45,633 nucleotides of DNA from a virus. The stretch is from the IMG/VR virus record IMGVR_UViG_3300036900_000028, positions 1 through 45,633 of that record; one strand, given 5' to 3'. Of the stretch, positions 15,042 through 42,153 are shown piece by piece. The translations under genes were made by a program, and so were the position numbers. The notes beneath the pieces were generated by a model. That model had not been told where the DNA came from. It made no database searches and saw only the letters and a program-made list of their open reading frames with translations. Position 1 is the first letter of the stretch. Each line of letters starts with the position of its first letter.

Positions 15042-15100
15042 AATCAAGGCTCCCCTTTTTGAGCAGCCTAGCATCCGTGCACATGCGCACTCTCAAAGCC

Positions 15101-18706: not shown

Positions 18707-21700
18707 CTAGCTATTCGGCCCGATGAACGTCACGCGGCCCTGGCGGTCGGCCTTCGAGAGCGCGCCGATGATCAGATCCTGGAATGATCGGCCGTCGTAC
18801 GCCTGAGAGCCGCGCAGATCGAAGTGGTAGGTTGAACCAGAGGCGGCGCCGTACTGGCTGGCCGGCACGATGAACTCACCGCCAGCCTCGGACATGATCC
18901 CGCTGACGCGCCCAGTTTGTGCCGACACGAGCAAATGCGGGTCGGGAACGTAACCGCCATCTGCATACCCGGCGATGCTGGCGATCTTGCCGCCCCATGA
19001 TGGGTCCGTCGCATAGATCGGGCCGATAGCCTCGGCAAATCTTCGAGCGTCGTGGGTACTGTCCCAGACCGATGTACCGGCTCTGTAGATGCCAGACTGC
19101 CTGACAAGTTTCCCGAAGTCTTCAAAGCTCTCCGCATTGTTGTGGTACGCCCGAAATGCCGCGTTGACCGTAACCCGCTGGCCATTGATGATTTCGTCGG
19201 TCGGCAGCGTGACCGACCCGGCAGGCCCCGTCCCTTTGATCGAAAACAGATTGTGGTATTGCGTCTGAAGCTGCGAACTGATTCCCTCTTGAATAGGGAT
19301 CGCGGCCATGATGTAGGCCGGCAGATCGTATGCAGCAGCAGCAGCAGCCGCCGAATTGAGCAAGCTCTGATAGATGGGCGACTGGTTCGGGTGAGACGGC
19401 ACGGACTCGAAACCAGGACCGCCTCCCCCCGCGTTGATGCCAGGGATGCCGCCCGGTCCGGGGCCAACACCGGCGCCGATGCCGCCACCAGCGTTGACGC
19501 CTGGGATGCCACCCGGACCGGGGCCAGTGCCCGAGGAGTTGCCCGTTCCCGACCCGCTGCCACTCGGCACGCTCGGCCCGTACGGAGCCGTGCCCACGCC
19601 GCCCTGACTGTTGATGCCGTTGGCGCGGCGCTGGACCTGATCGAAATAGGCATTGGCGTCGGCAGTAGCCTGCTCCCAGGTCTTCGTGATCGTGCCATTG
19701 GAGCCGACGAGGCCGTTCTGATAGTCCTTCCAGCGCTGCTCCTCGATCTTGAGTGCATCGTCGAGCGCCCGCTTGTGCGCGTCGATCTGGTCGATGATGC
19801 CGCTCTTGCCGTCCGGGGCATGGTAGGCCGCTTGGATGGCTGCGCGCTGGGCCTCGTACGACGCCTCGGCATCGGCAGCCTGATCGCGGTAGCCCTTCGC
19901 AGCGGCAGCAGCGGCCTTCTGGGCGGTCGGGATCAGGCCGGTTACCGGGTTGGTGTAGGTGTCGTCGATCGCCTTGGTCGCAGCCTGCGCCATCCGCTCG
20001 GCCGCCGTCTTCTGGGCGTCGAAGCTGATGTCCGCCGCCTTCTGCGCGGCCTCGACGGCAGGGATCAGCCCCCGTTGTGGATCGCGATAGATGACGCGGG
20101 TCCGCTCGTTCGCCTCATCGCGCGCCCGATCGGCCTGCGTTCGCGCTAGACGGTCTGCCTCATCCTCGGCGGTCCTGACGTCCTGGATAGCCCGCTTCCG
20201 CTGGGTGGCCTGGTCGTCTTCGAGACGGACATTCGTATCGTGCGCGTCCTGCTCGGCCCGCTTGCGGGCGTCGATGCCGTCGAGGGCGTGCTTGTTGACA
20301 TCCTCAGCAGCCAGTTTCTGCTTCGCGAGGTCGTCGGTGATCGACTTGTACTTGTCGTTTTCAGCCTTGGTCTCCTGGGATATCCTGTCCTTCGCCAGCG
20401 TCAGCGCGGCATCGGCATCCCGTTTCTGCTGGTCGAGCAGTTCCTTCTGGTGCGTGTAGAGGGCGTCATTCGCACGCTTCTCGTCATCAATGTGGTTCTT
20501 GGTGGCGGTGTACAGGTCATCCGCCACCTGCTTCTGCTTGTCGAGGCTGTCCTTGATTGCCTTATAGGTGTCGTCCGCTGCCTGCCGCTTGGCGGCAACG
20601 TCTTTCTCAACCCGGGCCAACTCATCATCAGCGGCCTGCTTCTGGTCGGCCGTCGTCTTCTGCACCAATGCATAGGCGTCATCCGCCGCCTGCTTGCGGG
20701 CTGCGACCGAATCGGCGATCAGCTTGTAGGCGTCATCGGCTGCCGTTTTCTCGGTGTCGAGTACGCGCTTGGTGTTGGTGAGTTGATCGTCTGCCGCTTG
20801 CTTCTGAGCGGACGCGATGTCCTTGACGCGCGCCAGTTGATCATCAGCCGCCTGCTTCTCGGCATCGTTTGCGGCCTTAGCCTGCCGGTTGCGTTCGTCT
20901 TCGGCAGCCTTCTCGGCGGCAGCCTGATCGGCAATGGCCGCCTTCTGATCCTGGAGGGCCTGACGCTGGCCGTCCCGACTGATCTTATTCTGGCCGTCAA
21001 CGAGGGCTTGCTGCGCCTCCAGGAGCGTTCTGGTGGCGTCGTCAATCGTCTTCTGATTGCCGGATGATTGGGCCTGGAGTAAACCCGACTTTGCCGCTGA
21101 GACGCGGTCGTTGAGGCCCTGGAGGGTCGCAGCGTTCTGCTCGGCCTTGTCCGCTTCATCGAGGCCACGGATCTGGGCGTCAATAGCATCCTGACGGGCC
21201 TTGCTCTCGGCGTCGATCGCGGCAAGCGCCTGGCGGTGCCGGTCGTCCTCCGCCGACGCTTCTGCCTCAATCGCCCGGAGCGTCTGATCGTGCGCTGTCT
21301 GGGCCGCCTGGACCTGATCGTCCAGATTGCGGACGGTGCGGTCGTGGAGGTCCTGGGCCGCTTGACCCTCATCGGCAAGTTGCCGCAACTTCAGATCATG
21401 AGCGTCCTGGGCCTGCTTCTGCTCGTCTTCGAGATGGCGAACGGTCGTGTCGTGCAGCGTATTCGCCGCGTCGAGTTGGTCCTGCGCCTGCCGTACGATC
21501 AGGTCATGGGCGGTCTTCGCCTGATCCTCTCGGTCGGACAGTTGACGGACCGTGAGGTCGTGGGCGGTCTGAGCGGCGTCTGCCTGCGCGGACAATTGCC
21601 GCGTCGTTGCATCGTGGGCATCTTGCGCCGCCTTCGCCTCATCGTCGAGTTGCTGCGCACGGGCATCGTGGGCCTTCTGGTCGGCCCGTGCCTCCGCGTC

Positions 21701-23740
21701 GATGAAGTCGACGGTGGCGTCGTGAATCTTCTGGGCCTTGTCGCCCTCATCCTGGATAGCCTGGAGGCGCTTGTCGTGCTTGTCTGAATCCGCCTTCGCC
21801 TCAGCCTCGATGTTGCGAAGCTCAGCCTCCTTCTTGTCGTTGGCCTTCTTGACCTCGTCGTCCAGGTTGCGGACAACCTGCTCGTGACGGGCACTCTCCG
21901 CTCGTGAGATGGCCTGGGCCTGATCGGCAAGTGCCCGATCCTCGACGGTCCTGGCGTCATCACGAGCCTGCTTATCAGCATTCAGCCCGTCGATAACCTC
22001 CTGGTGGTGCTTGTCAGTCGCGGCCTTCTCGGCCTGCTCCTGAACTTCGAGTTGCTTGATCTGGGCGGCGGCCGCGTCGTCCGCTGCCTGCTTGGCTGCC
22101 GAGATGCCATCGAGTTCGTCCTGCTTGCGCTGCTCGATGATGTCTTTCTCGGTCTGCTCGTTGGCCTGAAGCTGAGCGATGTTGGTGCGGAAGCCTTCGG
22201 CGGCCGCATCGGCCTCTGCCTTGATCTCGTCAAGGCGGTTCTTCTTTTGCTTGTCGAGCGCATCAAGTTGGTTCTTCTCAGCGAGTTCAGCCTGCCGCTT
22301 GTCGTCCTCAAGTTTGGCCACAGCCGCATCATGGGCCTGCTTCAGTTCATCCTGGAGCGCCTTGCCCTGCCGTTCGAGCGCCGATGCCGCGTCCTCATCC
22401 TGCTGCTTGGCGGCGGCCTGGGCATCGCGTGCGGATGCCGCCTGCTGAGCGGCTGATGCATCGGCTTGCTGTTTCGCTGCCTGGTCAGCAATGCGCTGGT
22501 TGGCCGTCGTGATCTGGTCGTACGCTTCTTTGGCCTGCTGCGAGGCCACGACGAGGTTGCCGGAAGCCGCCGATCCGAGTGCCTCGAAGATCTTGACGGC
22601 CGCGCTCAGCGACTCCACGACCCGCTGCGACGTCTCGGTCGTGCCGTCGAAGATCTGGAGGAATTTGGTCAGTTCCTGCTCAGCCGCAACGATGGTCGGC
22701 GTGAGCTTCTGGCCCATCTCGATTTCGATGGCCTGAAACTCGGTGGTGAGCTTGTTCGTGGCGCCGACCAGCGTGTTCTGGTGTTCGGCCGCAGCGCCGG
22801 TCTGGTCGCCAGTCTCCTTCATCAGTGCGATGTAGGCGGCCTGGATGATGCGGCCCTCGGACAACTGAGCGAAGTTCGCTTTCTCCGACTCGGTCAGGTC
22901 GCCCTCAGCCTTGATAATCCGCTGGTTGATCAGGTCGCCATACTGCGTGAGCGCGCCGGCCCGGCCCTTCAGGCCACCTTCGAGAGCCTTCAGGGCCTCC
23001 GGGAGCGTCGTGCCATACTGCGCCGCCAGGTCAGCCGCGACTTTGACCAGTTTCTCGTCCTGGTCAATCGTGAGGTTGCCTTCCTTGTTGAAGGCTTCGA
23101 GGCCGGCTAAGGAGCGCTCGTAGGCCGTGACGCTGAACTCGGACTGCTTGGACTGCTCCTGCGCGTAGGCGATCAGGACCGGTGTCGCGTCGCCATACGC
23201 CTTGGTCAGTGCGAACTGGGCCTGCTCGGCCTTGGCCGTAACGTCGATGACCTCGGCGATGGCATCGTGGACGAGGTGCACGCCGATCTGCACGCCGGTC
23301 AGAGCACTCGCGAACTTGAGCGCCGACGACGCCGAGAGGTTGAAGGTCTGGCTCGATTGTGTCGTGACCTGCGTAGCCGCTTGCTGCGCTGTGGCCTGCG
23401 CGGTCGTGGCCTGGGTCGCAGCCTGCGTCGCGACCGTCTGCTGCTGCTGGGCCTGGGCGTTGGCCAGCATGGCGGCGGCGTTCTGCTGGGCCGCCTGCGC
23501 TGCCACGCCGAGCGCCTGCGCCTGCGCCTGGGTGGCAGCGGCCTGCTGCTGGTACGCCTGGACGATAACCTGGGCTTGCCCGGCAAGGGCGGCTGACTGA
23601 GCGAGGCCGGCCTGACGAATGGCCGCCGTCATCGCCTCGTTGGCGGTCTTGGTCGCAGCCTGGGCCTGGACGTAGGCGTCGAGCAGCGGCTGGCTGTTGA
23701 GAACCAGATCGTACTCGGCGCTGCCCAACCCGAACGGCAT
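18707..23740 (-). CDS. Tape measure protein with C-terminal GH73-type glucosaminidase
   Basis: This 1677-residue protein is the ruler of the tail. Residues 1-130 are Gln/Ala-rich. About 150-400 resembles the globular tape measure segment. About 400-1370 is an unusually long charged coiled coil with many repeats of DDxYxxxKxxxxxxKQxA and AHDxTVRQL type. A Gly/Pro linker follows (about 1385-1450) with two copies of GPGPGGIPG(V/I)NAGGG. Residues 1455-1595 match a GH73 (FlgJ-like) glucosaminidase: AAIPIQEGISSQ (Glu1485), YHNLFSIKG, FEDFGKLV and YATDPSWGGKIASI. The end (GGYVPDPHLLVSA, EAGGEFIVPA) is typical of tape measure C-termini. The enzyme would open peptidoglycan during DNA entry. Confidence 0.9.
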   Translation of the reverse strand: MPFGLGSAEYDLVLNSQPLLDAYVQAQAATKTANEAMTAAIRQAGLAQSAALAGQAQVIVQAYQQQAAATQAQAQALGVAAQAAQQNAAAMLANAQAQQQQTVATQAATQATTAQATAQQAATQVTTQSSQTFNLSASSALKFASALTGVQIGVHLVHDAIAEVIDVTAKAEQAQFALTKAYGDATPVLIAYAQEQSKQSEFSVTAYERSLAGLEAFNKEGNLTIDQDEKLVKVAADLAAQYGTTLPEALKALEGGLKGRAGALTQYGDLINQRIIKAEGDLTESEKANFAQLSEGRIIQAAYIALMKETGDQTGAAAEHQNTLVGATNKLTTEFQAIEIEMGQKLTPTIVAAEQELTKFLQIFDGTTETSQRVVESLSAAVKIFEALGSAASGNLVVASQQAKEAYDQITTANQRIADQAAKQQADASAAQQAASARDAQAAAKQQDEDAASALERQGKALQDELKQAHDAAVAKLEDDKRQAELAEKNQLDALDKQKKNRLDEIKAEADAAAEGFRTNIAQLQANEQTEKDIIEQRKQDELDGISAAKQAADDAAAAQIKQLEVQEQAEKAATDKHHQEVIDGLNADKQARDDARTVEDRALADQAQAISRAESARHEQVVRNLDDEVKKANDKKEAELRNIEAEAKADSDKHDKRLQAIQDEGDKAQKIHDATVDFIDAEARADQKAHDARAQQLDDEAKAAQDAHDATTRQLSAQADAAQTAHDLTVRQLSDREDQAKTAHDLIVRQAQDQLDAANTLHDTTVRHLEDEQKQAQDAHDLKLRQLADEGQAAQDLHDRTVRNLDDQVQAAQTAHDQTLRAIEAEASAEDDRHRQALAAIDAESKARQDAIDAQIRGLDEADKAEQNAATLQGLNDRVSAAKSGLLQAQSSGNQKTIDDATRTLLEAQQALVDGQNKISRDGQRQALQDQKAAIADQAAAEKAAEDERNRQAKAANDAEKQAADDQLARVKDIASAQKQAADDQLTNTKRVLDTEKTAADDAYKLIADSVAARKQAADDAYALVQKTTADQKQAADDELARVEKDVAAKRQAADDTYKAIKDSLDKQKQVADDLYTATKNHIDDEKRANDALYTHQKELLDQQKRDADAALTLAKDRISQETKAENDKYKSITDDLAKQKLAAEDVNKHALDGIDARKRAEQDAHDTNVRLEDDQATQRKRAIQDVRTAEDEADRLARTQADRARDEANERTRVIYRDPQRGLIPAVEAAQKAADISFDAQKTAAERMAQAATKAIDDTYTNPVTGLIPTAQKAAAAAAKGYRDQAADAEASYEAQRAAIQAAYHAPDGKSGIIDQIDAHKRALDDALKIEEQRWKDYQNGLVGSNGTITKTWEQATADANAYFDQVQRRANGINSQGGVGTAPYGPSVPSGSGSGTGNSSGTGPGPGGIPGVNAGGGIGAGVGPGPGGIPGINAGGGGPGFESVPSHPNQSPIYQSLLNSAAAAAAAYDLPAYIMAAIPIQEGISSQLQTQYHNLFSIKGTGPAGSVTLPTDEIINGQRVTVNAAFRAYHNNAESFEDFGKLVRQSGIYRAGTSVWDSTHDARRFAEAIGPIYATDPSWGGKIASIAGYADGGYVPDPHLLVSAQTGRVSGIMSEAGGEFIVPASQYGAASGSTYHFDLRGSQAYDGRSFQDLIIGALSKADRQGRVTFIGPNS

Positions 23741-25106: not shown

Positions 25107-25430
25107 TCAGATCTGGAAGGCGCCGACCGTGATGGCCGTCACCTGGGAGTACGTGATCTGGACGTAGCCGCTCGTGTCGTTGAAGCGGTTGGGATCGAAC
25201 GGTCCGATCATCTTGTCGCCGCCGCTGGAGACCGTGACCGTCTGGTTGTGGGTCGAGCCCTGGTTGCAGGTGACCTGGCTGGCGATCGTCACGGTGACAG
25301 CGGCACCGGCGCTCTTGACTTCGAGCATCGTCTTGCCGTCGTTGCTGAACTGGTCGCCGCCGGAGGTTGCCGCCGCGAATGACGGGGTCGCCCCGGTGGT
25401 GTTGACGTCCTGGACTGAGAGAGTCGCCAT
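25107..25430 (-). CDS. Small beta-rich structural protein (paralogue of the one at 29829)
   Basis: This 107-residue beta-rich protein has NDGKTMLEVKSAGAAVTV, IASQVTCNQGSTHNQTV and NDTSGYVQITYSQVTAITV. The gene at 29829-30242 has matching blocks (NNGRTMLLVEN, VVSQVACNQGVTH, DSRGYVQLEYSSVTGVTV), so the two are paralogues. Both lie among virion genes, so Ig-like or decoration proteins of capsid or tail are likely. This copy stands next to the tail tube gene and may decorate the tail. The shared CNQG motif is unusual. Confidence 0.65.
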   Translation of the reverse strand: MATLSVQDVNTTGATPSFAAATSGGDQFSNDGKTMLEVKSAGAAVTVTIASQVTCNQGSTHNQTVTVSSGGDKMIGPFDPNRFNDTSGYVQITYSQVTAITVGAFQI

Positions 25431-29078: not shown

Positions 29079-29807
29079 TTACAAGATCCGTCGATACTGC
29101 CTGAGCATCCCGATCACGTTAGCTGGCAGCCCGAGTCTCGCTGCCTGATCACTCAGGCTGTTGCCGGCGTACTGCACCTGAAGACTGCCGACCCTGACGG
29201 CGCTCGCATCAGCCACCACGCCGTCACGCTGGGCGTACCACGTCTTGATCGTCTCAAGGCACGCCTGCTCGATCGCGCCGGGCAGCGGCTGAGCGTCATC
29301 CGGACCGGGCAGGACGAACGGATCAGCAAATGGCGGCAGGACGTAGCCGGCGCGGTAGGTCACAATGAAGCGCTGCTCGGCCTGCCCGCCCGGCAGGATG
29401 TAGCCACTGGCGTAGGCGATTGAGTCCCAGCCACCGCCGCCGAATCCGCCGTTCCCAAAGATGCCCAGTCCTCGGCGCCAGCCAGCCACGCGATAGAGTG
29501 CGCCAGCCTCGGCATCCTCGACGCTGTAGTCGGTGAACGGCTCAGAGTCTTCGAGCACGCTCGTGACGCTGACGATCGGCGCCCGGGTTAGGCCCAGAAT
29601 CTGACTGTTCGTGCCCTTCAGCGTCTCGTAGACCGTCTCCACGCCGAACACGCGGCCACACTCGCGGGCGATGGCTGATGATGCGCGGTCGATCATGCCG
29701 AGCAGAACGTCATCATCCGTGGTGTCAGCGATGCCCAATTCGGACTTGATCGTCGCGAGCGTGGTCAGGTTTTGACTCGCGCACTGCTCGATGACGGTCA
29801 CAGCCAT
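29079..29807 (-). CDS. Head-tail connector (HK97 gp6-like adaptor)
   Basis: This 242-residue protein has the gp6-like layout. The N-terminus is a helical bundle (LTTLATIKSELGIADTTDDD and LLGMIDRASSAIARECGRVF), followed by a beta core (YETLKGTNSQILGLTRAPIV, VTSVLEDSEPFTDYSVED). YIVTYRAGYVLP-like sequence and a C-terminal helix (AIEQACLETIKTWYAQRDG) follow. It binds beneath the portal. A Gly-rich insertion (GIFGNGGFGGGGWDS) lies in the beta part. The start is ATG 29807. Confidence 0.8.
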   Translation of the reverse strand: MAVTVIEQCASQNLTTLATIKSELGIADTTDDDVLLGMIDRASSAIARECGRVFGVETVYETLKGTNSQILGLTRAPIVSVTSVLEDSEPFTDYSVEDAEAGALYRVAGWRRGLGIFGNGGFGGGGWDSIAYASGYILPGGQAEQRFIVTYRAGYVLPPFADPFVLPGPDDAQPLPGAIEQACLETIKTWYAQRDGVVADASAVRVGSLQVQYAGNSLSDQAARLGLPANVIGMLRQYRRIL

Positions 29808-31548: not shown

Positions 31549-32874
31549 TTAGACCTTCTGGCTCGCCTGAAAGACGAGGCCCATGTTATTCACGCTGACC
31601 GGAATGGTTGAGCCGTGCGTGAGCTTGACGGTGCGGTCAAGCCAGACCTTGAACCCGAGCGATCGGGCAAGGTGGTTGAAGCCCCAGTCCTCGCTTAGGA
31701 GGCTGTAGCCACCGACGTAAGGGTCTTCCACCACCGACTGCGGGAAGAAGTTGTAGAACGCCCACGGCTCATAGGCGTGCGTCAGCGGCAACTCCCTGAC
31801 CATCGCGTCGATCACCCGGCGATGCACGGCCATGAAGCCCGTGGCGGCGTACATGATCTCCATCGGAGAATTGCCGGGTCCGAACTGGATCACCTCATCC
31901 GTCTCCGGCAAGAGGCGCAGGCTGAGGTGCTGGCCGTTGTGGACGGGGTAGGCGCCGGCCACGATGTCGTAGCCGTTGCGGCACAGCTCAACGACGTGAT
32001 CAGCATCCTGGGGCGTGTAGCCAATGTCTGAGTCGATCATCAGGAACACGTCATCAGCCGTCTCCTGATACCACTTGGTGACGATGATCCCACGTGACCG
32101 GCCGATCAGCGCGTCGCCGTTCTTGACCCGGAAGCGCCAGCGGCCTTCGCTGCCCTCGATGGTGGACATGACGGCCTGCATCGAGCCGATGGCAATGTCC
32201 CGGTAGGAGCAGAGCAGGATGCTGGATGTCTGCTGGCCAACCTCTTGCACACGTCGCCAGACCCGGACACGGCCCTCGGCGTTGTCAATCTGGCGCCAGC
32301 CGTAGGCTTCGAGGACGTGGCCAGGGTGCCATCCTCGATTCGACTCGAGATGGAGCGGCGTCGAATGATCATGCGTTGGACAGGTCTCGAACAGCAGGCA
32401 GCCGACCGGCGCACGCTGAGCGATGCCGGCCATGAACGAATCAGGGTCAGGCACATGCTCCAGGACGTCGATGCTCACCAGAAGGTCAGCCATCTCCAGC
32501 GGAGCCTGTGCGACATCCGGATATGTCGCAAGCGCGATGCCACCGAGGCGATCTCGGAGGATGGCGTTCGGTTCGACGCCATATAGGCTCGCCGATGGTA
32601 GCGCCTCGTGCAGCGCGGTCAGGTCGTGGCCGGCGCCGCAGCCGATGTCGATGATCCGCTCGGCGCCGGCAGTCTTAGCAACATGCACCAGCATATCCGT
32701 CCACGACTGCCGCTCAGGCGTGGCGTGCCAGGCGTCAAGGTCTTGCCCGAGGCGCTCGGATGTTCTGTAGAACCGATGAATAGCATCAGGAGTGGCGGGG
32801 TTGGTTTCCCGCCACTCCTGAGCCAGGGCTTCCCGTGTCTCACCAAGCACGAGCGGCCCATCCTGCACAACCAT
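31549..32874 (-). CDS. Methyltransferase-glycosyltransferase fusion
   Basis: This 441-residue protein starts at ATG 32874 with AGAGGGG upstream. Residues 1-210 form a SAM-dependent methyltransferase: RIIDIGCGAGHDL (about 73-85), YGVEPNAILRDRL, then LLVSIDVLEHVPDPDSF. Residues 215-441 form a GT-A-type glycosyltransferase: SSILLCSYRDIAIGSMQAV, DDVFLMIDSDIGYTP (DSD at 281-283, the metal/nucleotide site), IVAGAYP, YAATGFMAVHR and LSEDWGFN, ending VKLTHGSTIPV. The fusion could add and cap a sugar. It sits inside the head gene block, next to decoration-like genes, so virion glycoprotein modification is a reasonable inference. Host surface glycan modification is the alternative. Confidence 0.8.
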   Translation of the reverse strand: MVVQDGPLVLGETREALAQEWRETNPATPDAIHRFYRTSERLGQDLDAWHATPERQSWTDMLVHVAKTAGAERIIDIGCGAGHDLTALHEALPSASLYGVEPNAILRDRLGGIALATYPDVAQAPLEMADLLVSIDVLEHVPDPDSFMAGIAQRAPVGCLLFETCPTHDHSTPLHLESNRGWHPGHVLEAYGWRQIDNAEGRVRVWRRVQEVGQQTSSILLCSYRDIAIGSMQAVMSTIEGSEGRWRFRVKNGDALIGRSRGIIVTKWYQETADDVFLMIDSDIGYTPQDADHVVELCRNGYDIVAGAYPVHNGQHLSLRLLPETDEVIQFGPGNSPMEIMYAATGFMAVHRRVIDAMVRELPLTHAYEPWAFYNFFPQSVVEDPYVGGYSLLSEDWGFNHLARSLGFKVWLDRTVKLTHGSTIPVSVNNMGLVFQASQKV

Positions 32875-32912: not shown

Positions 32913-33335
32913 TCAGTTGACGCTGACCTTGACCTGCTGGATGGCCGACTGCGTGGGCGGGAGCGTCCCATTGCGGCGGTAGCGCGTCGCCACCGAGGCG
33001 TGGAGCACGGCCGCCGTGGCCGGCTGCGTGGCCGAGCGCAGGTAGCGGTCGGTCGGGCGGTAGACGTCGATGATGTAGATGTTCGCGTTGCCCGTGACCG
33101 CCACCTGGGTCAGCGCGGCGTTGGTGATGTTGGTCGCGCCACTCATGTTGGCGTTGGCGCTGGAGACGATGCGGGCGTCGTAGGTCGCGCCACTCGCCAT
33201 CGTACCGATGCTGAAGCAGTATTCGATGCCGTCCCAGCCCTGCATGTCCATCACGGCACCGTTGGCGTTCGTGGAACCGCTGACAGGCGCAATGTCCTGC
33301 GCAACCAGGACGGTATCCGACAGTGCATTGTGCAT
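32913..33335 (-). CDS. Head decoration-like protein after the major capsid gene
   Basis: This 140-residue protein starts at ATG 33335 with GGAGGG upstream. MHNALSDTVLVAQDIAPV, then VMDMQGWDGIEYCFSIGTM and ANIYIIDVYRPTDRYLR give a mostly beta protein typical of a minor capsid or decoration product. It lies one hairpin downstream of the major capsid gene, the usual place for such proteins. No family name is certain. Confidence 0.6.
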   Translation of the reverse strand: MHNALSDTVLVAQDIAPVSGSTNANGAVMDMQGWDGIEYCFSIGTMASGATYDARIVSSANANMSGATNITNAALTQVAVTGNANIYIIDVYRPTDRYLRSATQPATAAVLHASVATRYRRNGTLPPTQSAIQQVKVSVN

Positions 33336-33411: not shown

Positions 33412-34866
33412 TTAGACGATTCCGACCCTGAGGCCATCGGTATTCCAGCAGTTACCGCCGACGCGCTCCCAGAGGATGATCCCCGTCTGATCGGTGTCAG
33501 CGAAGCGCTCGCGTAGCACCACGCTGGTGATCTGCGCCCGCTGGGCGATGATGTAGTTCGAGAAGTCGCCCACGAGCAGCACCTTGTTGCCGTTGGTGCC
33601 GTCGTCAGGCATCCAGTCGGAGTTCTCGATCGGCATGCCCTGGATCTGGCGCGGCACGGCCGCATAGCCGGACCCGGCGTTCGGCGCCCAGAACGGCCGT
33701 CCGTTCGCGTCCACCAGAGCTGCGACCTTGCCCTCGATGCTGCGGCACATCAGCCAGCGGGAGTTGCTCACGTACTGCGCGGGCACCTTGTAGGCCCCGG
33801 CGATGATCTTTGGCGCGCTGCCGGTGTTGCTGGTGGTGTTGGTGATCGTGTCGGTAGTCGAGCCCTCAACGTCGAACGTCGTCAGACCACAATTCAGGAT
33901 GCCGAGCGGCTGGAGCGCCGAGCCGTCACCCGTGATGAAGCCCAGATCCTCGGTGAGCGCCATGTTCTCGGCGCCGTTCTGCGCCATGAATGACAGGATG
34001 TTGGTCGCGCTGTCACTGATGAAATCGTTGCTGAGCTTGGTCGCCACGCGCAGTTTCTTGACCGGGATGTCCAGGCGCTGGAAGGACGGGTCCACGTCCG
34101 TGAAGGCCGGCGTCTCACCCGCCCACGAGCCGACGAAGCCCGAGGAGTAGATCGAGCCGTAGGTGGCATTGGCCTTGACGGCAAACCATTGCAGCACGTC
34201 GCGGTTGGTGGTCTGGACGCGGGCGTAACGGCGCATGACGGCCTGCTGCGCCGTGCGGACCAGCATCTCGGCCTGCACGTCCGGTGGGACGGTGAAGCCG
34301 CCAGCGGTGTCGGTGCCCTCGCTGAGCGCCTTCTGTTCGTTCTGGGTCAGCCGTGCGTAGGCCGAACCATCTGGGCTGGTCGCCGTCAAACGGATCAGGC
34401 GGGTGTACGCCTGCTTGTACTCCAGGCTCATCGCCGCGCGAGTCGTCTTGAAGAACGTGGCGGCGTTCGCCTCGGTCGGGATATCCCCGAGCAAGACATC
34501 CTCACCGAACATCTCGACGTGCTTGCCGAGCGACGTTGGCGCATAGGCCATACCGCCCTTGAACTCCCAGCCACGAGCCACGAGCGCCTTGCGGTCGTCG
34601 TCGTCGCCATTCACGCCGTGGCGCAGGTTGCGGAGCGGCTCGTCAAGGAACTTGTCGAGGTCGCCCAGGTCGCGATTCTTCTCCGCAACCTTCTGCTCGG
34701 ACTCGATCTCGGCCCGCAGGGCGGTCGCCTCGGTCAGCAACTTGGAGACGGCCTGGTCCTGCTCCGGCGGCAGCCCCGTCTTGTGCTCAGCCATGATGGT
34801 CCGGGCGCGGACGCGGAGCGTCTCCAGCTTCTCGACCTTCGCCTTCAGTTCGGCGGTCATTGCCAC
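33412..34866 (-). CDS. HK97-family major capsid protein
   Basis: This 484-residue protein starts at GTG 34866, chosen because GGAGG lies 7 bases before it; an ATG at 34860 is worse placed. Residues 1-105 are a charged coiled coil (AELKAKVEKLETLRVRARTI and LTEATALRAEIESEQKVAEK), the scaffold-like delta region. The motif ALSEGTDTAGGF (180-191), then VPPDVQAEMLV, marks the start of the HK97 fold, followed by E-loop and A-domain type segments (VDPSFQRLDIPVKKLRVATKLS, ALTEDLGFITGDGSALQPLG). The protease encoded next is expected to remove the delta region during prohead maturation. Confidence 0.9.
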   Translation of the reverse strand: MAMTAELKAKVEKLETLRVRARTIMAEHKTGLPPEQDQAVSKLLTEATALRAEIESEQKVAEKNRDLGDLDKFLDEPLRNLRHGVNGDDDDRKALVARGWEFKGGMAYAPTSLGKHVEMFGEDVLLGDIPTEANAATFFKTTRAAMSLEYKQAYTRLIRLTATSPDGSAYARLTQNEQKALSEGTDTAGGFTVPPDVQAEMLVRTAQQAVMRRYARVQTTNRDVLQWFAVKANATYGSIYSSGFVGSWAGETPAFTDVDPSFQRLDIPVKKLRVATKLSNDFISDSATNILSFMAQNGAENMALTEDLGFITGDGSALQPLGILNCGLTTFDVEGSTTDTITNTTSNTGSAPKIIAGAYKVPAQYVSNSRWLMCRSIEGKVAALVDANGRPFWAPNAGSGYAAVPRQIQGMPIENSDWMPDDGTNGNKVLLVGDFSNYIIAQRAQITSVVLRERFADTDQTGIILWERVGGNCWNTDGLRVGIV

Positions 34867-34868
34867 GT

Positions 34869-36134
34869 TCAGACCTCCAACAGCTCTAGCTCGCGTGCGA
34901 GCAACGCGAGCCGGGCTAGCCCGTCCTCGCCCTTGTCGATCGTCTCGGCCCAGGTCAGGGCCTTGCCGATGTCCGTCACCACGGCGCCGATCTTGGTCCG
35001 CATCTCCACGCGGATGCGGGTGCCATCCTTGGTGTCCTCACCGAGTAGCCGCATCGCCTTGTGCTCATCCGCGAGTTGCTCGGACAGGTCCAGCAGGCGA
35101 TACGCGAAGCCGCGAATGTCGAGCGGCGCGCTGCCGAGTTTCCACTCGGTCGCGTCGTCAATCGTCTTGCCGCTGTTGGCCTGCTCTAGGAGCGTGCGAG
35201 CACGCGCCTGTAAGCGCTGTTTCTGGCCCTCATCGAGCCAGGAACCGGCCTGCGGGATACGGGCGATCGCGTTCCGGATGTGGACCGGATCGACCTTGCC
35301 GTCCGCGTCCTTGTAGGGGAAGTGCCGGAGCGACCGTGGCACCGTCCGGCCCGCATCGTCCTTCTGGCCACCCGATTCGACGTAGAGGAAGGACGAGTCC
35401 GGCAGATCGTTCTGGTACTGGGTGTCCCAGACGGTCTTACTGCCGCCGCTGCCCTTACCGTGCATGTCGCAAGCGGCCTTGGCGGCGGCCTCGGTGTCGT
35501 ACGAGCCCATGCTGTCGCCGTCAGGGCCGACGACGTGGAACTTGTCGCCACGCTTCTCGACTGTGCAGTTCACGCCTGCCTTCCCTTCGTGGTCGGCGTC
35601 AACGGCAAAGCCGCCAGCCGTATCAGATCCTTCGGACAGCGCCTTCACGCCGGTGGTGAGGGCTTCGGGGTTCATCACGGCCATGCCGGCGGCGAAGCTG
35701 TACTCGTGAAGGTCGAGCGACATCAGCCGGCGCACGGTCTTCCCGCTCATGCGGTCAAACTTGGCCCCGCCCGGATGCACGCGATAGCCAATGCTCTGGC
35801 CGAGGGGCCGGCCATGCGCCGCCATGAACTGCGCGGTGGCCAAGAGGTCGTCCCCGACCGGGCCGGGCTTGATCAGCGTCTCTGAAAACAGGCCCTTGCC
35901 GTCGACGCGCAGGGTGATCGGAATGCCGACCGGCAGCGCAGAGGTGTCGTGGCCGATGAAGACGCCGATGTCGGCGGGCTGCTTCTCGCGCAGCGTCTTC
36001 GTGAACGCTCCAGGGTCGATCACGTCGTTGCCGAGATCGACGTTGCCGATCACCGCCGCGTAGCCGGAGATGATCCGCTGGAGCGTATCGACTTGCTTGA
36101 CCTCCATCGAGGTCCGCAGCCATTCGAGCGACAA
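34869..36134 (-). CDS. HK97-family prohead protease with C-terminal extension
   Basis: This 421-residue protein starts at TTG 36134, 8 bases after GGAGG (36147-36143), which lies in the arm of a hairpin; ATG 36107 is an alternative. Residues 1-165 form the prohead protease: GYAAVIGNVDLGNDVIDPGAF, GHDTSALPVG (His62), GQSIGYRV (Ser114) and LHEYSFAA (Glu144). ALSEGSDTAGGF (165-176) matches a stretch of the capsid protein. The remaining half has RTVPRSLRHFPYKDADGKVD, a segment with IRNAIARIPQ and a helical end. A scaffold or inhibitory role of this end is possible. The product cleaves itself and the capsid delta region. Confidence 0.9.
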   Translation of the reverse strand: MSLEWLRTSMEVKQVDTLQRIISGYAAVIGNVDLGNDVIDPGAFTKTLREKQPADIGVFIGHDTSALPVGIPITLRVDGKGLFSETLIKPGPVGDDLLATAQFMAAHGRPLGQSIGYRVHPGGAKFDRMSGKTVRRLMSLDLHEYSFAAGMAVMNPEALTTGVKALSEGSDTAGGFAVDADHEGKAGVNCTVEKRGDKFHVVGPDGDSMGSYDTEAAAKAACDMHGKGSGGSKTVWDTQYQNDLPDSSFLYVESGGQKDDAGRTVPRSLRHFPYKDADGKVDPVHIRNAIARIPQAGSWLDEGQKQRLQARARTLLEQANSGKTIDDATEWKLGSAPLDIRGFAYRLLDLSEQLADEHKAMRLLGEDTKDGTRIRVEMRTKIGAVVTDIGKALTWAETIDKGEDGLARLALLARELELLEV

Positions 36135-36242: not shown

Positions 36243-36439
36243 TAGGCTTGTTTTACTTCGAGCGGGCCGCTTGGCGTGTCCACACAGCGCCGAGCCCGCT
36301 TGCCGACCACCTCGACCGTTGTCTGCACGCCGCAGGTGCAGGGTACGGCGCGCAGGTACGATCCCTGAAGCGTCCCGAGGTACTTCTGGCAGGATGCACA
36401 CCTGATCTCTATGGCGTCAGCGGGTGGCGCGGCCATCAT
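36239..36439 (-). CDS. Com-like zinc ribbon protein
   Basis: This 66-residue protein starts at ATG 36439, overlapping the portal stop (ATGA). CASCQKYLGTLQG then PCTCG gives a four-cysteine zinc ribbon close in pattern to Mu Com and to small zinc proteins that many phages encode next to structural genes. The C-terminus (EVVGKRARRCVDTPSGPLEV) is basic. It may bind RNA and act as a translational regulator, as Com does for mom; there is no mom gene here, so the target is unknown. Its position just before the hairpin-controlled protease message is suggestive. Confidence 0.65.
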   Translation of the reverse strand: MMAAPPADAIEIRCASCQKYLGTLQGSYLRAVPCTCGVQTTVEVVGKRARRCVDTPSGPLEVKQAY

Positions 36440-37812
36440 CGTCCTGCCGCCAGTTCTTGCAGTGCCCGCAAGTCGGCCGGCGTCGCATGCCCGTTAGCGC
36501 CGTTCGTGGCACCGCCATTGCGAGCGTCAGCAGGATTGGAGCCTGCCGCTAGCTGCAATGACGGAGCCGGCGGCGGTGGCGCCGTCAACTGCTCCTTCGG
36601 CAGCGGCGAGATGTTGTCAGGCACCATCAGGATCGCGCCGTCCTCGAAGTCGGGCTCGCGGCCCAGGTCAGCCCGCGCCTCCTGGATGCTGATGACGCCG
36701 CCGGCGAGTTGCGCGAGCACGCGGGTGCTCTTGGCGTCCTCATCCTCCTGGAGCGCCTTGACGGTGGAAAGATCGAACTCGACACGATCTACGCCGTTGA
36801 ACTCTGGCACGAGCGCCGTGTTGAGTGGCTCCGAGAGCATCTGGTAGAGCGGCGTCAGCGTCTCGTCCCAGAAGCCGGCGCGGGCCTCTCTGGCAGCCGA
36901 CCGCTGGCCGCGCATGCTGAGGCGGGCGCCGATCAACTCCTGGGGCACGCCGAACGCCATCGCGATCCGCGTCTCGGATATCTCGTCAAGTTCAGGCAGC
37001 ACGAGGCCGCGCTCACCAAGGGGCATCCCCATCGGCGTATAGGTGGCCTCGGTGTTATCGAGCACCATCAGCGAGTGCCAGCCGGCAGCGCCGCCCGTCT
37101 CGTTACGGAAACGGTCCTTGATGATCTGCCGCTCGCTAGCCCCTACCTGCTTACTGATCGTGAGCATGCCCGCCGGGACACCCGCGTTCCTGAAGTAGGC
37201 AGCAGTGTACGCGCGCATCGCATTGTCAGAGTCAACACGACCGGCAGCCACGGCGAGCGGCGGCAGGCCGTAGTAGTCATCAAGCGGGTTTCTGGTTCGG
37301 ATGTGGATCACGTCATCGGCGCTGAGTTGCTTGGTCTGCTCGGCAATCCTGTACTCGTAGCCGCCGATGAAGCGGGTGGCATCAGGAATGACGAACATGC
37401 GGTCAGGGCGCAGCAGCCACAACTCAACCACCTGCCCGGCGGCAGAGCGCACCTTCTCGATATAAGCATTGCCGCTGATCGAGAGGTGCATGATGACGGT
37501 GGCCCAGAACTGGAAGCGGTCGAGGAACGGATTCGGCCGGTCCAGAAGGTCAAGGATCGGGTGCTGCTCGATGTCCTCGCCGTCCTGGTTGAGCGCCTTC
37601 ATGTGCGGCTCAGCAGCGCTGGTGGCTAGTTCCTCAATACAGGCGAACACGATCTCGTTGGACGAGTAGCCTTCCCGAGCGAATCTGAAATATGACTCTC
37701 TCTGATATTGCGGTGTGTGGTCCTGCCATGTCGGGATGGTGGCGCCGATGGCGATCTTCCGCTCCGGCAGGAAGCGGGCAATGGACGTGAAGGAATCAGC
37801 GATCAGGCCCAC
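36436..37812 (-). CDS. Portal protein (HK97 family)
   Basis: This 458-residue protein starts at GTG 37812, 7 bases after GGAGG; upstream in-frame sequence has poor coding character. The HK97-type portal pattern is clear: REGYSSNEIVFACIEELATS, PILDLLDRPNPFLDRFQFWA, SISGNAYIEKVR, VELWLLRPDRM, ADDVIHIRTRNPLDDYYGL, PPLAVAAGRVDSDNAMRAY, FRNAGVPAGML and IAMAFGVPQELIG. The C-terminus is a low-complexity Pro/Ala/Asn segment. It forms the dodecameric ring for DNA entry and for connector attachment. Confidence 0.9.
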   Translation of the reverse strand: MGLIADSFTSIARFLPERKIAIGATIPTWQDHTPQYQRESYFRFAREGYSSNEIVFACIEELATSAAEPHMKALNQDGEDIEQHPILDLLDRPNPFLDRFQFWATVIMHLSISGNAYIEKVRSAAGQVVELWLLRPDRMFVIPDATRFIGGYEYRIAEQTKQLSADDVIHIRTRNPLDDYYGLPPLAVAAGRVDSDNAMRAYTAAYFRNAGVPAGMLTISKQVGASERQIIKDRFRNETGGAAGWHSLMVLDNTEATYTPMGMPLGERGLVLPELDEISETRIAMAFGVPQELIGARLSMRGQRSAAREARAGFWDETLTPLYQMLSEPLNTALVPEFNGVDRVEFDLSTVKALQEDEDAKSTRVLAQLAGGVISIQEARADLGREPDFEDGAILMVPDNISPLPKEQLTAPPPPAPSLQLAAGSNPADARNGGATNGANGHATPADLRALQELAAGR

Positions 37813-37814
37813 AG

Positions 37815-37970
37815 TCAGCCTCCCCACGCGGCGAGCGAGAACACACGCACCATGATGCCGGCCGTTGCTGACAGCAGGACGAGCCCCAGCACGGACGCCA
37901 GCACGAGCACGAGCGCCATGCCGACAAGGCGCCGGTCCTGCGCGTCGATAGGCGAGGCCGGGAGCTTCAC
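37815..37970 (-). CDS. 51-residue single-pass membrane peptide
   Basis: The GTG at 37970 overlaps the terminase stop (GTGA). The product has a short polar start (KLPASPIDAQDRRLVG), one long hydrophobic helix (MALVLVLASVLGLVLLSATA) and a short end (GIMVRVFSLAAWGG). It sits between large terminase and portal genes, 2 bases from the portal start. The role is unknown. It may be an entry or lysis accessory or a host membrane modulator. Confidence 0.55.
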   Translation of the reverse strand: MKLPASPIDAQDRRLVGMALVLVLASVLGLVLLSATAGIMVRVFSLAAWGG

Positions 37971-39277
37971 AGGAACGACACTCCGGCATACTGGCTGGAC
38001 TCGATGGCCTGATACGCGGCGATGGCTGCCGACATCACAGAGTCCTGGATAAGCTTCTCGTCGGACCACTCGTACAAGCCCATCTCGCGGTCGAGCTGCT
38101 CACTCTGGTGCTTGAATCGCCCTTGCTGCACGAGTAGTTGCAATGCCTGGATCGCCTGCGTCTTGGTGCGGGCGGTCGTGGTGAATGGCTCAACGGGGAC
38201 GGCCAGATTCTCAATGACGGGATCGCCGACGCCATTCGACTCTACCCAGGTCTGGCCCATGCGCCGCTGCCGGTCCTCAATCCTGGACTGGATGACAGGA
38301 TAGGGCGCCAAGAGCCGCTCGTACTCCACGACGTTCCATGTCTCGCCGTAGAGGCCGATCGTGATGCCGACCGTGTGATCCTGCCGGCGCCCGATGTCCC
38401 AGGCTGTAATCAGCATCTCCGCATGCGCCGCGTCACCGTTCCATCCCTCTTTGCACTTCACGAGGTCGTCGGGGTCAAAGACGGCATCGCCAGAGGTGAT
38501 GAAGTCCAGATCATATTCCTGGGCGAAGCTCTGGCGCGTCATATTCGAGCGCATCTTCGAGGCCCACGCCTCGTCATAGCGCGGGCAGTCCGACCAGTGG
38601 ATCTGGTGCCGCGACCAGTCACCGCCTTCGAGGCCGGACCACAGGCGGAAGAACATATTGCTCCGACCGTTCGGCGTGGACAGGATCGTCATGTTGCCGC
38701 CGGTCGAGATGGTACCGATGATGCTCTCGTAGATCAGCGCGTCATAGCCACAGAACGCGAACTCGTCGAGGTACACATCCGTGGCCGCGATGCCGCGACC
38801 TGTACTCGGGTTCGCGGGGAGGCTGACGATCCGCGAACCGTTGGCAAAAGCCAACTCGCCCTGGTTCTCTTTGGTCAGGGTCGGCATCGTCTTGAGGCCG
38901 CTCAGCGTGTGCTGGCAGTAGCCGATGAGGCCGCGTGCTGCGTCCTGGTTGCGGCTCACGAACAACTCGGTGCTGTCGGGGCGCGTGATCGCCTTGTGCA
39001 GCGCCTCGATGGCGACGCAGTTTGAGATGCCGGTCTGCCGGGCCTTGAGCACGATGCGGCGCGGCGATCGGTCTTCAAGCAGTGTGGCCTGATAGCTGTA
39101 GGGTGAGAACGGCCGGCGCCCCTCGGTGGGCAGCACGATCGTCGCGTTCTCTTTGGCCCAAGCGAGTGGCGAGGCTGGGGCAACGGATCGTTGTCGCTCA
39201 CGCTGCTGCTGCGCCTCCCAGTCGGCCACCGCCCACGGGAGCGCGTCGAGCACGGCGGACGGTGGAGGCTTCGGCAT
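37967..39277 (-). CDS. terL: Large terminase subunit
   Basis: This 436-residue protein starts at ATG 39277, sharing a base with the small terminase-like stop. Walker A is KARQTGIS (about 78-85), Walker B is VYLDEF (Asp171/Glu172), and the coupling motif is ILSTPNG (about 198-204). The RNase H-like nuclease has TAWDIGRRQDHT (Asp294) and a C-terminal metal site near WSDEKLIQDSV. It powers DNA packaging and cuts concatemers. The gene follows the small subunit and precedes the portal gene, as usual. Confidence 0.9.
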   Translation of the reverse strand: MPKPPPSAVLDALPWAVADWEAQQQRERQRSVAPASPLAWAKENATIVLPTEGRRPFSPYSYQATLLEDRSPRRIVLKARQTGISNCVAIEALHKAITRPDSTELFVSRNQDAARGLIGYCQHTLSGLKTMPTLTKENQGELAFANGSRIVSLPANPSTGRGIAATDVYLDEFAFCGYDALIYESIIGTISTGGNMTILSTPNGRSNMFFRLWSGLEGGDWSRHQIHWSDCPRYDEAWASKMRSNMTRQSFAQEYDLDFITSGDAVFDPDDLVKCKEGWNGDAAHAEMLITAWDIGRRQDHTVGITIGLYGETWNVVEYERLLAPYPVIQSRIEDRQRRMGQTWVESNGVGDPVIENLAVPVEPFTTTARTKTQAIQALQLLVQQGRFKHQSEQLDREMGLYEWSDEKLIQDSVMSAAIAAYQAIESSQYAGVSFL

Positions 39278-39633
39278 CAGGTGGCGCCCACACCAGCCGC
39301 GATCTCTTCGGCGCGGCGGATGAGCCACTGAGGATCGGCCCCGCTGTCCTCGGCAAGTTTCTTCGCTCGAGCCTGAATGTCGATGGTGATCGATTGACCC
39401 GGCAGCCCCTCGATATACGCAAGCACAAGCTTTGATGCGTCTAGAGCGACACGGGGGTCGCGGTGAAACATCAGTTTCACGAGGTGGGCGGCAGCCTTCT
39501 CGGCATTGGTGCCGCCGCCCCGGACGACCTTGTCGAGTTCTCGGAGGACAGCATCAGTAATCGGCTTCCGCTTCGGCCTGCCGTTCGGGTTACCTGACTG
39601 CCCTGGCTTGAACTGGGAATCTTCCCTAGCCAC
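39277..39633 (-). CDS. Small terminase-like protein (DUF5681-type)
   Basis: This 118-residue protein starts at GTG 39633. The N-terminus reads FKPGQSGNPNGRPKRKPI, the DUF5681 signature often found before large terminase genes. A helical core follows (AEKAAAHLVKLMFHRDP, VALDASKLVLAYIEGLPGQ) and a C-terminal helix. It should recognise phage DNA and recruit the large subunit. The basic GRPKRK segment may contact DNA. Confidence 0.75.
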   Translation of the reverse strand: MAREDSQFKPGQSGNPNGRPKRKPITDAVLRELDKVVRGGGTNAEKAAAHLVKLMFHRDPRVALDASKLVLAYIEGLPGQSITIDIQARAKKLAEDSGADPQWLIRRAEEIAAGVGAT

Positions 39634-39730: not shown

Positions 39731-40357
39731 TCATGCCGCCTCGGCTTCGCTCCTGGTGGCTGCGAAGGCGAGCGTGCAGAGGCACGCGCCTCGGCAGATG
39801 CGGGCACCAACCGGCGGCAGCGTGCCGATGGGCACCCAGCCCCGATCCGATGCGGCGACGCACTCCTCACACCCTTCATCAGAGTGCTGGACGTTCAGCT
39901 CGTACGCCATGCCAGCCAGCGCCATCTCGCGGCGCCTGATGTTCTCGTAGGTGGTGCGGCCGCTATTGGCGTACTGGCGGGCTCTGGCATCAAGGCGGCC
40001 GTTCATGCGCTGCTTCCCGTCAAGCACATCGGCAACCATCTGACGGGCATAGGCGTACTGTTCGCGGATGACGGACCCCACATAGCCCCACCTGCTCTGT
40101 GTCATCTGGTCGCGGCCACCGTAGGCGGCGAGGGCGCTGGCGATCTGGACGCTCTTGATCTCGGTTAGCATGCCGTCGAGGAACTGAGCGGCGTTGATGG
40201 TGCCGGCGCGGAAGTCGGACGAGAGCGTGGCCATGTGCTCGGATGCGAGGCTGACGGTGGCGTCCACAGCGTCGCGGACCTGGCGCTCGCTCACGAACCT
40301 GCCGGTGCTGGAGTCTCGGAAGCGGCCTGCCCGATCGTCGTAGCGGAAGTCAGCCAT
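39731..40357 (-). CDS. MuF/SPP1 gp7-like minor head protein
   Basis: This 208-residue protein starts at ATG 40357, 7 bases after GGAG. It has a helical body and ends with GCEECVAASDRGWVPIGTLP, PVGARICRGACLCTLAF, which is the Cys-rich C-terminal motif of SPP1 gp7/MuF-like head morphogenesis proteins. It is shorter than typical family members and lies before the terminase genes instead of after the portal gene. It may be a truncated or ejected internal protein. The motif supports the call; the position is odd. Confidence 0.65.
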   Translation of the reverse strand: MADFRYDDRAGRFRDSSTGRFVSERQVRDAVDATVSLASEHMATLSSDFRAGTINAAQFLDGMLTEIKSVQIASALAAYGGRDQMTQSRWGYVGSVIREQYAYARQMVADVLDGKQRMNGRLDARARQYANSGRTTYENIRRREMALAGMAYELNVQHSDEGCEECVAASDRGWVPIGTLPPVGARICRGACLCTLAFAATRSEAEAA

Positions 40358-40595
40358 CACGCTTCTCCGTTCGTGCGCTCAGCATCCCTTCGAGGCCGGT
40401 CCCTGCCCGGCGCTGGGCCTCGTTCCAGAGCGCCTCGGCCTTGTCGACGTCGCCCGGCGTGATCTGGGCGGCCACGTTGAGGGCGTGCTCGTTGGGCAGC
40501 GTCGAGGATCGGTGCTCCTCCAGCAAGCGCTCCACCGAGCGAGCGAAACCCGGATCGTCGAGGGGCGTGGCAAGGCGCTTACGGGGTCGCGGCAT
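40350..40595 (-). CDS. Small helical protein, unknown function
   Basis: This 81-residue protein starts at ATG 40595, inside the end of the glycosyltransferase gene, and ends 8 bases inside the next one. PRPRKRLATPLDDPGFARSV, EHALNVAAQITPGDVDKAEA and LWNEAQRRAGTGLEGMLSAR make a basic N-terminus followed by helices. It could be a small DNA-binding or packaging accessory protein. No family is recognised. Confidence 0.6.
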   Translation of the reverse strand: MPRPRKRLATPLDDPGFARSVERLLEEHRSSTLPNEHALNVAAQITPGDVDKAEALWNEAQRRAGTGLEGMLSARTEKRDG

Positions 40596-42153
40596 CTATC
40601 ACCCACTCTTTCCATGCGTCTCTAAAGGCGTTCTCGACACAAGCAGCATACCGCTCGGGCGACGCCATGACGCTGCTGAGGATGGCATCGCGCAGTCGTT
40701 GCCGCTCATATAGCGAAGCCCCACAGAGTGCTGACGAAGCCAAGAGCAGGTAGTCTGTGACCGTCGTAGCCGTCGTGCCGCCAGAGGGATAGACCGTATC
40801 CAGCACTGACGCGCTGAGTCGGCCAGAGACGTAGTCGCCCAGCAGCGTCACCGTGGGCACACCCATCAGGCACGCCTCCAGCGTGGTCACGCCACCGCCG
40901 TGTGGGTAGGGATCGAGGTGGACGTCAATCTCGTTGTACGTGGCCAGATGGATCAGGCGGGTGGTCGAGCCGCGAATGCTCACGCGGTCGGGCGTGACAC
41001 CGAGCGATGCGAGCACGGCCAGCACCCACTCGCGCAAGTCCTGGTTGTTGTACTCGGCAGATTTCAGGATCAACTTAGCCGTTGGCATGCGCCGCAGGAT
41101 CTCAGCCCAGGTCGAAAGCGTGCGCTCGTTGAGCTTGTAGGCCCGGCCGATGTAGCCGAAGGTCGGGTAGCCGTTGCGCTCCATTGGTGGCGGCGCGACC
41201 TCGGGATAGGGCGGGCGCACATCGAAGCCCATCGCTGAGGGTAGGCGGATGATGCGCTCGTGGTACAGGTGCTCATGCTCTGGTGGGATCGTGACGGCAT
41301 CTGAGATCAGATAGTCCATGCAATCAAGGCCGGTCCCCGTCGCGTGACCCCAGCCCGTGATCTGGATCGGTGCGGGCTTGCGCGCGAAGATCAGGAGACG
41401 TCCGCCGGTCGAGAAGCCCGACAGGTCCACTAGAATGTCGATCTGATCGGCACGGATCTGGCGGGCGACGTCCTCGTCGGAGCGGTCCTGGATCGGCACC
41501 CACTGGTCGGCCACGGCCTCGAAGCGCAGCGTCTCCTGGTCGCGCGGGGCAGCCGTGTTGTCGTAGCACCAGGCCTCGAAACGCTCGTGATCGTGGCCGA
41601 ACAGGACCGGACCCCATGCGATCGAGGCGCTGTGGTTGAAGAAGTCGCCCGAGACGTAGCCGATGCGGAGCTTCCGGTCCGGGTCGCGGTCGTTGGTGTG
41701 CGGTGGAGCTGCCGCCGTCAGCGCAGCGCAGTGCATGGCGTTGAAGGCGCGGCGATCAGCGATTCTGAGCGCTGGCGTGGCCTCGGGATGGTGGTCGAGG
41801 GCGAACAGGAGGTTGGTCCAGCTCGTGACATTCATGGGGTCGAGGCGGATGGCCTGACGGTAGGCCGTGATGCCGCCCACATAGTCACGGTTGCTGGAGA
41901 GCACGACGCCGAGGTTCGAGTAGAGACGGCCGGCGGGGGAGATGCGGCAGGCGCGACGCAGTAGAGTGATAGCGGTTGCCGTGTCTCCGCGCTGGTGCAA
42001 GAGCATGGCCAGAAGGCTCAACGCGTCGGGGTTGGCCTGGTCGATGGCGAGCGCCTCAGTGCAGGCTTCCTCAGCCTGTGCGTGGGCGCCGTCGCGGTAC
42101 CATATCTTGGCTTGTTGCAGGAGGATGACGGCATCCTCAGCAGTCAGGGCCAT
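40579..42153 (-). CDS. GT41/SPINDLY-type O-GlcNAc transferase-like enzyme
   Basis: This 524-residue protein starts at ATG 42153 with a purine-rich GGGGGGAAG upstream. Residues 1-120 are TPR repeats (AEEACTEALAIDQANPDALS, AYRQAIRLDPMN). The catalytic part follows: RIGYVSGDFFNHS (His174), DILVDLSGFSTGGRL, APIQITGWGHATGTGLD, MDYLISDAVTIPPEHEHLY, TFGYIGRAYKLNERTLSTW and HLDPYPHGGGVTTLEACLMG, PTVTLLGDYVSGRLSASVL. These match the GT41 fold of O-GlcNAc transferases. It would transfer a sugar to Ser/Thr of a protein. It stands upstream of the head genes, and the virion or host target is unknown. Confidence 0.88.
   Translation of the reverse strand: MALTAEDAVILLQQAKIWYRDGAHAQAEEACTEALAIDQANPDALSLLAMLLHQRGDTATAITLLRRACRISPAGRLYSNLGVVLSSNRDYVGGITAYRQAIRLDPMNVTSWTNLLFALDHHPEATPALRIADRRAFNAMHCAALTAAAPPHTNDRDPDRKLRIGYVSGDFFNHSASIAWGPVLFGHDHERFEAWCYDNTAAPRDQETLRFEAVADQWVPIQDRSDEDVARQIRADQIDILVDLSGFSTGGRLLIFARKPAPIQITGWGHATGTGLDCMDYLISDAVTIPPEHEHLYHERIIRLPSAMGFDVRPPYPEVAPPPMERNGYPTFGYIGRAYKLNERTLSTWAEILRRMPTAKLILKSAEYNNQDLREWVLAVLASLGVTPDRVSIRGSTTRLIHLATYNEIDVHLDPYPHGGGVTTLEACLMGVPTVTLLGDYVSGRLSASVLDTVYPSGGTTATTVTDYLLLASSALCGASLYERQRLRDAILSSVMASPERYAACVENAFRDAWKEWVIDAATP

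Follow-up and report, generated by a model that had tools for sequence, protein, structure and literature searches.

A GT41 glycosyltransferase gene in the head modules of uncultured tailed phages and its possible role in capsid O-glycosylation

GT41 Enzymes and Glycosylated Virions

Animals, plants, and some bacteria are known to O-glycosylate proteins by means of GT41 enzymes, which transfer sugar to Ser or Thr or, in the HMW1C types, to Asn. The glycosylation of virions is known from a few isolated phages, where it apparently proceeds via other enzymes. While virion glycosyltransferases and GT41 enzymes are each known, their combination and spread appear to be new.

Among the closest described systems, Arabidopsis SPINDLY (AtSPY; PDB 7y4i, 8dti) is a protein O-fucosyltransferase of family GT41, to which human OGT and the OGT of the bacterium Thermobaculum terrenum (TtOGT; 5djs) also belong. 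TtOGT has an O-GlcNAcase as its genomic partner (PMC4683255), and no activity of the enzyme has been shown in vitro. FlmG of Caulobacter is a soluble cytoplasmic flagellin O-glycosyltransferase of the TPR type, in which the N-terminal domain binds the self-assembling structural protein and the C-terminal domain transfers the sugar (PMC7591256). A precedent for glycans in tailed phages comes from mycobacteriophages: according to Freeman et al. (2023), as summarized in PMC12619734 and PMC12691614, glycans are carried by the subunits of both the capsid and the tail tube. However, the GT41 catalytic domain was absent from 50,697 GenBank phage records, mycobacteriophages included, when these were searched by tblastn with three viral GT41 proteins (the matches were of TPR length only), and therefore another enzyme family must glycosylate the virion in those phages.

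In IMG/VR, by comparison, GT41 is encoded on approximately 50 contigs. The example analyzed here lies on the record IMGVR_UViG_3300036900_000028, the entire sequence of which (45,633 bases, GC 64%) is referred to below as the window. PHROGs contains no evident GT41 family: what 25 viral members match there is at most a TPR family or one of unknown function, apart from a single weak match to a glycosyltransferase. Likewise, a Foldseek search of the BFVD viral structure library returned generic GT-B matches only (TM up to 0.48) and no GT41 catalytic domain. No study of a phage GT41 was found in the open-licence literature searched, in which the sole mention of a viral GT41 found is one line in the CAZyme table of a vinegar virome (PMC9602057).

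Position and Neighborhood of the GT41 Gene

The GT41 gene is read from the minus strand, from an ATG at 42153 to a stop at 40579, and its frame of 524 codons for amino acids has no internal stop; the interval 40579-42153 given in the initial annotation is correct. The ribosome-binding site GGGGGGAAG immediately precedes the ATG. At the other end, the stop overlaps by 17 nt the start of a gene for an 81-aa protein of unknown function without a Pfam match (40350-40595, minus strand), an arrangement that likely reflects translational coupling, and this gene in turn overlaps that of a phrog_24776 protein (39731-40360, minus strand). Farther downstream, all on the minus strand, lie the genes for a DUF5681 protein that is TerS-like by position (39277-39633), the terminase large subunit (37967-39328), the portal protein (36436-37989, with a true start probably downstream of the one listed), the prohead protease (Peptidase_S78; 34869-36134), and the HK97-type major capsid protein (MCP; 33412-34866). 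The MCP gene is adjoined by that of a 140-aa phrog_28483-like protein (32913-33335), behind which are encoded a fusion protein of a methyltransferase and a GT-A/GT2-like domain (31549-32874) and, at the end of the head module, the phrog_442 head-tail adaptor (29079-29807). Since the GT41 gene thus sits just 5′ of the phrog_24776, TerS-like, terminase, portal, protease, and MCP genes, its earlier description as directly upstream of head genes holds, with the gene upstream of the terminase and 7.2 kb from the MCP (midpoint distance).

The phrog_24776 protein is perhaps a minor head protein, because its homologue sits between portal and protease in three related loci (L115-L117). Its gene is upstream of the terminase in the window and in L124, and the differing placements are read as reshuffling of the head module. 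The slot between portal and protease that it takes in L115-L117 is the one occupied by GT41 in another phage lineage. No replication gene was recognized among the window genes examined, and the record may be incomplete.

Fold and Active Site

The protein matches the Pfam family Glyco_transf_41 (PF13844; E = 3.9e-36) along with several TPR models. In a sequence search of the PDB, it aligns over its whole length with TtOGT (the best match, E = 6e-71) and with AtSPY (E = 5e-66). An AlphaFold2 model, computed from an alignment of 25 viral homologues, has a pLDDT of 94.3 and a pTM of 0.91; it shows three N-terminal TPRs, with helices at residues 5-121, ahead of a GT-B catalytic domain at approximately residues 160-520. 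Foldseek places this model with AtSPY (TM 0.90) and TtOGT (0.87), and at a greater distance from human OGT (approximately 0.72). The window enzyme resembles SPINDLY in its combination of TPRs and GT-B domain, but has far fewer TPRs. With TtOGT, which is bacterial, it has in common an equal length and a compact build without an intervening domain. Human OGT belongs to the same superfamily and has the catalytic lysine in common with the window enzyme, but differs from it in having the intervening domain. The N terminus of the modeled protein is a TPR helix, which is consistent with the cytoplasmic action that had been proposed.

The active site was mapped onto the SPINDLY structures (PMC9715652, PMC10027727), with residues numbered from Met1 (P0001 numbers are one higher). 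The two histidines, the serine, the two lysines, and the glutamate of the SPINDLY active site are all conserved, as His174 (H495 in SPY), Ser175 (S496), Lys340 (K665, which is essential; K842 in OGT), Lys364 (K689), His402 (H728), and Glu426 (E752). In a residue alignment of 181 sequences, Lys340, Lys364, and His174 are invariant in 46/46 non-redundant viral homologues, so that essential residues are retained rather than lost. The apparent absence of the catalytic lysine from TtOGT was dismissed as an artefact, because 5djs is the K341M mutant. Pfam and PDB matches, reading frame, catalytic residues, and predicted fold all agree with the initial view of an intact GT41 enzyme with N-terminal TPRs, which is probably active.

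The Donor Pocket

The sugar pocket departs from those of the characterized enzymes. Where SPINDLY has Tyr744 and human OGT has Cys917, the window enzyme has His418, and where these have Thr747 and His920, respectively, it has Gly421; the positions of SPINDLY Thr748 and Ile592 are Val422 and Trp268. Neither the UDP-GlcNAc pocket of OGT proper (Cys917 and His920) nor the GDP-fucose pocket of SPINDLY (Tyr744, Thr747, and Thr748) is therefore present, and the pocket of TtOGT, with Tyr/Cys, is different again. Most phage relatives have either Gln or His at position 418, and a pocket subtype of Gln/His, Gly, and Val/Ile is found in most viral enzymes as well as in many proteobacterial ones. It has been argued that the Tyr744 position, occupied by Tyr in SPINDLY and by Cys in human OGT, may drive donor choice in GT41 (PMC9715652). 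Since the pocket residues differ here, neither UDP-GlcNAc nor GDP-fucose is to be assumed, and the donor is probably neither of the two. Judged from these residues, the label O-GlcNAc transferase-like in the initial annotation is right for the fold, but not for the donor.

Ancestry of the Phage Gene

In an IMG/VR relative of the window (L125/L130), the terminase is 69% and the MCP 58% identical to those of the window, and two tandem GT41 genes (8093-11301), 48% and 50% identical to that of the window, lie directly behind the capsid genes. The tandem is best read as a duplication within the lineage. The window GT41, these two copies, and the GT41 of L005 (45%) form a viral clade with support of 100/96 from which all bacterial sequences are excluded, and a second, larger all-viral clade comprises 30 rows (SH-aLRT 98). 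The tree requires six changes of viral or bacterial label, at least four of them on well-supported branches, and therefore several transfers rather than one. Among the GTDB loci retained, no bacterial match exceeds 41% identity, so that the phage relatives are closer than any host gene found there. With GC uniform, the gene is thus a phage gene by overlap, composition, relatives, and tree.

Profile searches detected no portal, MCP, protease, or terminase gene near the bacterial GT41 loci (L034-L111), and no prophage GT41 was found among them. An MCP search gave distant matches only in 22 GT41-bearing bacterial genomes, and no match at 1e-30 in 385 alphaproteobacterial genomes, a scan run without positive control. 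Several relatives of the window lineage, represented by partial records, show no GT41. Elsewhere, L003 and L009 are one 46.9-kb record (IMGVR_UViG_3300012683_000005) with two GT41 genes that are distant in sequence.

GT41 in the Head Modules of Other Viruses

Alignment queries of IMG/VR retrieved 31 and 40 GT41 loci; portal, protease, MCP, and terminase profiles were iterated over all viral loci, and other neighbors were read with PHROGs. The 24 contigs with an identified MCP give 25 GT41-MCP pairs, and in every one of these pairs both genes have the same orientation. When only loci of 14 kb or more are counted, the two genes lie within 3.5 kb of each other (midpoint to midpoint) in 13 of 15 cases, compared with the 37% expected if places were drawn at random from these loci, although contigs in virus collections are selected partly for hallmark genes and cases within one clade are not independent.

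GT41 occurs in head modules with at least four MCP families (PF05065, phrog_212, phrog_9953, and phrog_283). Where the MCP is of the PF05065 type, GT41 either separates it from the protease or comes after it. Approximately 15 distinct contigs have GT41 right after the prohead protease, followed by the HK97 MCP wherever the contig extends (L010, L014, L016, L017/L018, L019, L021-L023, L025, L138, L139, L142-L145, L152, L153); frame overlap of protease and GT41 is common in them, and one lineage has the order portal-protease-GT41-MCP. In L008, the order is MCP, phrog_28483, GT41, and head-tail adaptor; in the window lineage, the MCP and phrog_28483-like genes are followed by the methyltransferase/GT gene and then the phrog_442 adaptor. 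GT41 precedes a phrog_212 MCP in L005, and in L132 it lies between the portal gene and that of a 354-aa protein, which is followed by a phrog_9953 MCP. In L020, L031, L140, and L141, a phrog_9953 MCP and a structural protein precede GT41, and L013 has this structural protein in common with them. L015 and L137 have a phrog_283 MCP, GT41, and a head closure gene. A further clade (L006, L009, L011, L024, L027-L030, L148) does not adjoin the MCP and is partly found among tail-fibre genes. The search for a shared gene order thus shows GT41 recurring among head genes, and a glycosyltransferase gene in the structural region of a tailed phage, one feature expected of a phage virion-glycosylation system, is present.

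Candidate Acceptors and Possible Function

The protein encoded at 31549-32874 is a possible second glycan enzyme, with one half of methyltransferase fold and one GT-A/GT2-like half; it belongs to phrog_1574, of unknown function. Pfam gives no GT2 match for the window protein alone, while matches to Glycos_transf_2 or Glyco_transf_21 at approximately 1e-4 appear in four of the six relatives aligned with it. A homologue follows the MCP and phrog_28483-like genes in every relative that extends there (L112-L116, L124, L125), whether or not GT41 was detected there, and the two enzymes are not strictly coupled. Given two sugar-related enzymes around the head genes, capsid glycosylation is the simplest reading. 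The candidate acceptors are the MCP and the adjoining 140-aa protein, with a Ser+Thr content of 18.6%. Comparison of the window MCP with those of relatives without a detected GT41 revealed no GT41-specific Ser/Thr insert.

The function favored here, as a reasonably probable one, is that the phage GT41 O-glycosylates Ser or Thr of phage head proteins in the cytoplasm before or during prohead assembly. The enzyme would be made together with the late (head) genes. Its three TPRs would bind a head protein by a segment that is flexible or exposed at the surface, and direct this segment into the GT-B active site. There, an inverting reaction would pass one sugar of a host nucleotide-sugar on to Ser or Thr; the α-phosphate of the donor would probably act as the base, while Lys340 would hold the leaving group. 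In this lineage, extension of the sugar may fall to the GT-A half of the 31549-32874 protein, and its capping to the methyltransferase half. The outcome would be a glycosylated capsid, the acceptor being presumably the MCP or its 140-aa neighbor. FlmG is comparable in working mode, by mechanism alone, and differs in its flagellin acceptor and in the use of pseudaminic acid.

The initial annotation gave equal weight to virion and host proteins as targets. The virion part is strengthened by the gene order: as the same GT41 gene occurs among capsid genes with unrelated capsids, these viruses probably sugar-coat their virions, and the equal weight given to host proteins is not retained. It is nonetheless conceivable, if unlikely, that GT41 modifies a flagellin, surface, or defence protein of the infected cell or lysogen, for example altering adsorption or blocking superinfection, with the place among head genes explained by late expression and tolerance of insertion. 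FlmG, a bacterial TPR-type OGT that modifies flagellins in the cytoplasm, lends this some plausibility (PMC7591256), as do the window gene's position, on the upstream margin of the packaging genes, and the fact that not all relatives have GT41. Yet a host-directed gene would not need a place in the head module, and its retention there with four MCP families, in one lineage strictly as protease-GT41-MCP, therefore counts against a host target. Less probable still is action on a tail tube, tail fibre, or appendage. Such a target would suit the clade located away from the MCP and partly among tail-fibre genes, the Ser/Thr-rich tail-type proteins of the window (25% in that at 25107-25430), and the glycans described on the mycobacteriophage tail tube, but the identified neighbors in other GT41 lineages are mostly head genes.

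By far the least credible explanation is that the gene belongs to the host, on a contig that is misassembled or flanks a prophage, or that it is a decayed and functionless hitchhiker. The contig is metagenomic, and the 385 alphaproteobacterial genomes held no close MCP; against this, the nearest relatives come from another phage of this lineage, the clade is purely viral, GC is uniform, and the 17-nt overlap ties the gene to a downstream phage gene, so a host gene or chimera was rejected. Decay is contradicted by the intact frame and catalytic residues. Against glycosylation of head proteins itself stand the distance to the MCP, the GT41-less relatives, the lack of an MCP insert, and the tail-fibre clade, along with the weak or undetected activity of the bacterial structural relatives TtOGT and XcOGT.

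Whether uncultured tailed phages with different MCP families have acquired or exchanged a GT41 subtype with its own sugar pocket, dedicated to capsid O-glycosylation, is judged an evenly balanced proposition. The occurrence of GT41 in head modules across several lineages, with none in the GenBank phages searched, points to a widespread and unstudied route of capsid decoration. If the proposition holds, this would be an intracellular glycosylation system of the OGT/SPINDLY type that serves the virion and has no known counterpart in sequenced isolates. It might bear on phage stability, surface adhesion, and virion recognition. The small enzyme-acceptor pairs would also lend themselves to the study of substrate and donor choice in GT41, for which the bacterial enzymes TtOGT and XcOGT are without clear activity.

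Three other genes on the minus strand of the window are of note. A GDSL lipase/esterase domain forms the end of a 2408-aa protein encoded in the tail region (3363-10589), and not far from it is a gene for a separate GDSL esterase (14271-15074); glycan deacetylation at adsorption is a possible role. A 1677-aa protein (18707-23740), tape-measure-like by size and place, has a glucosaminidase domain near its C terminus.
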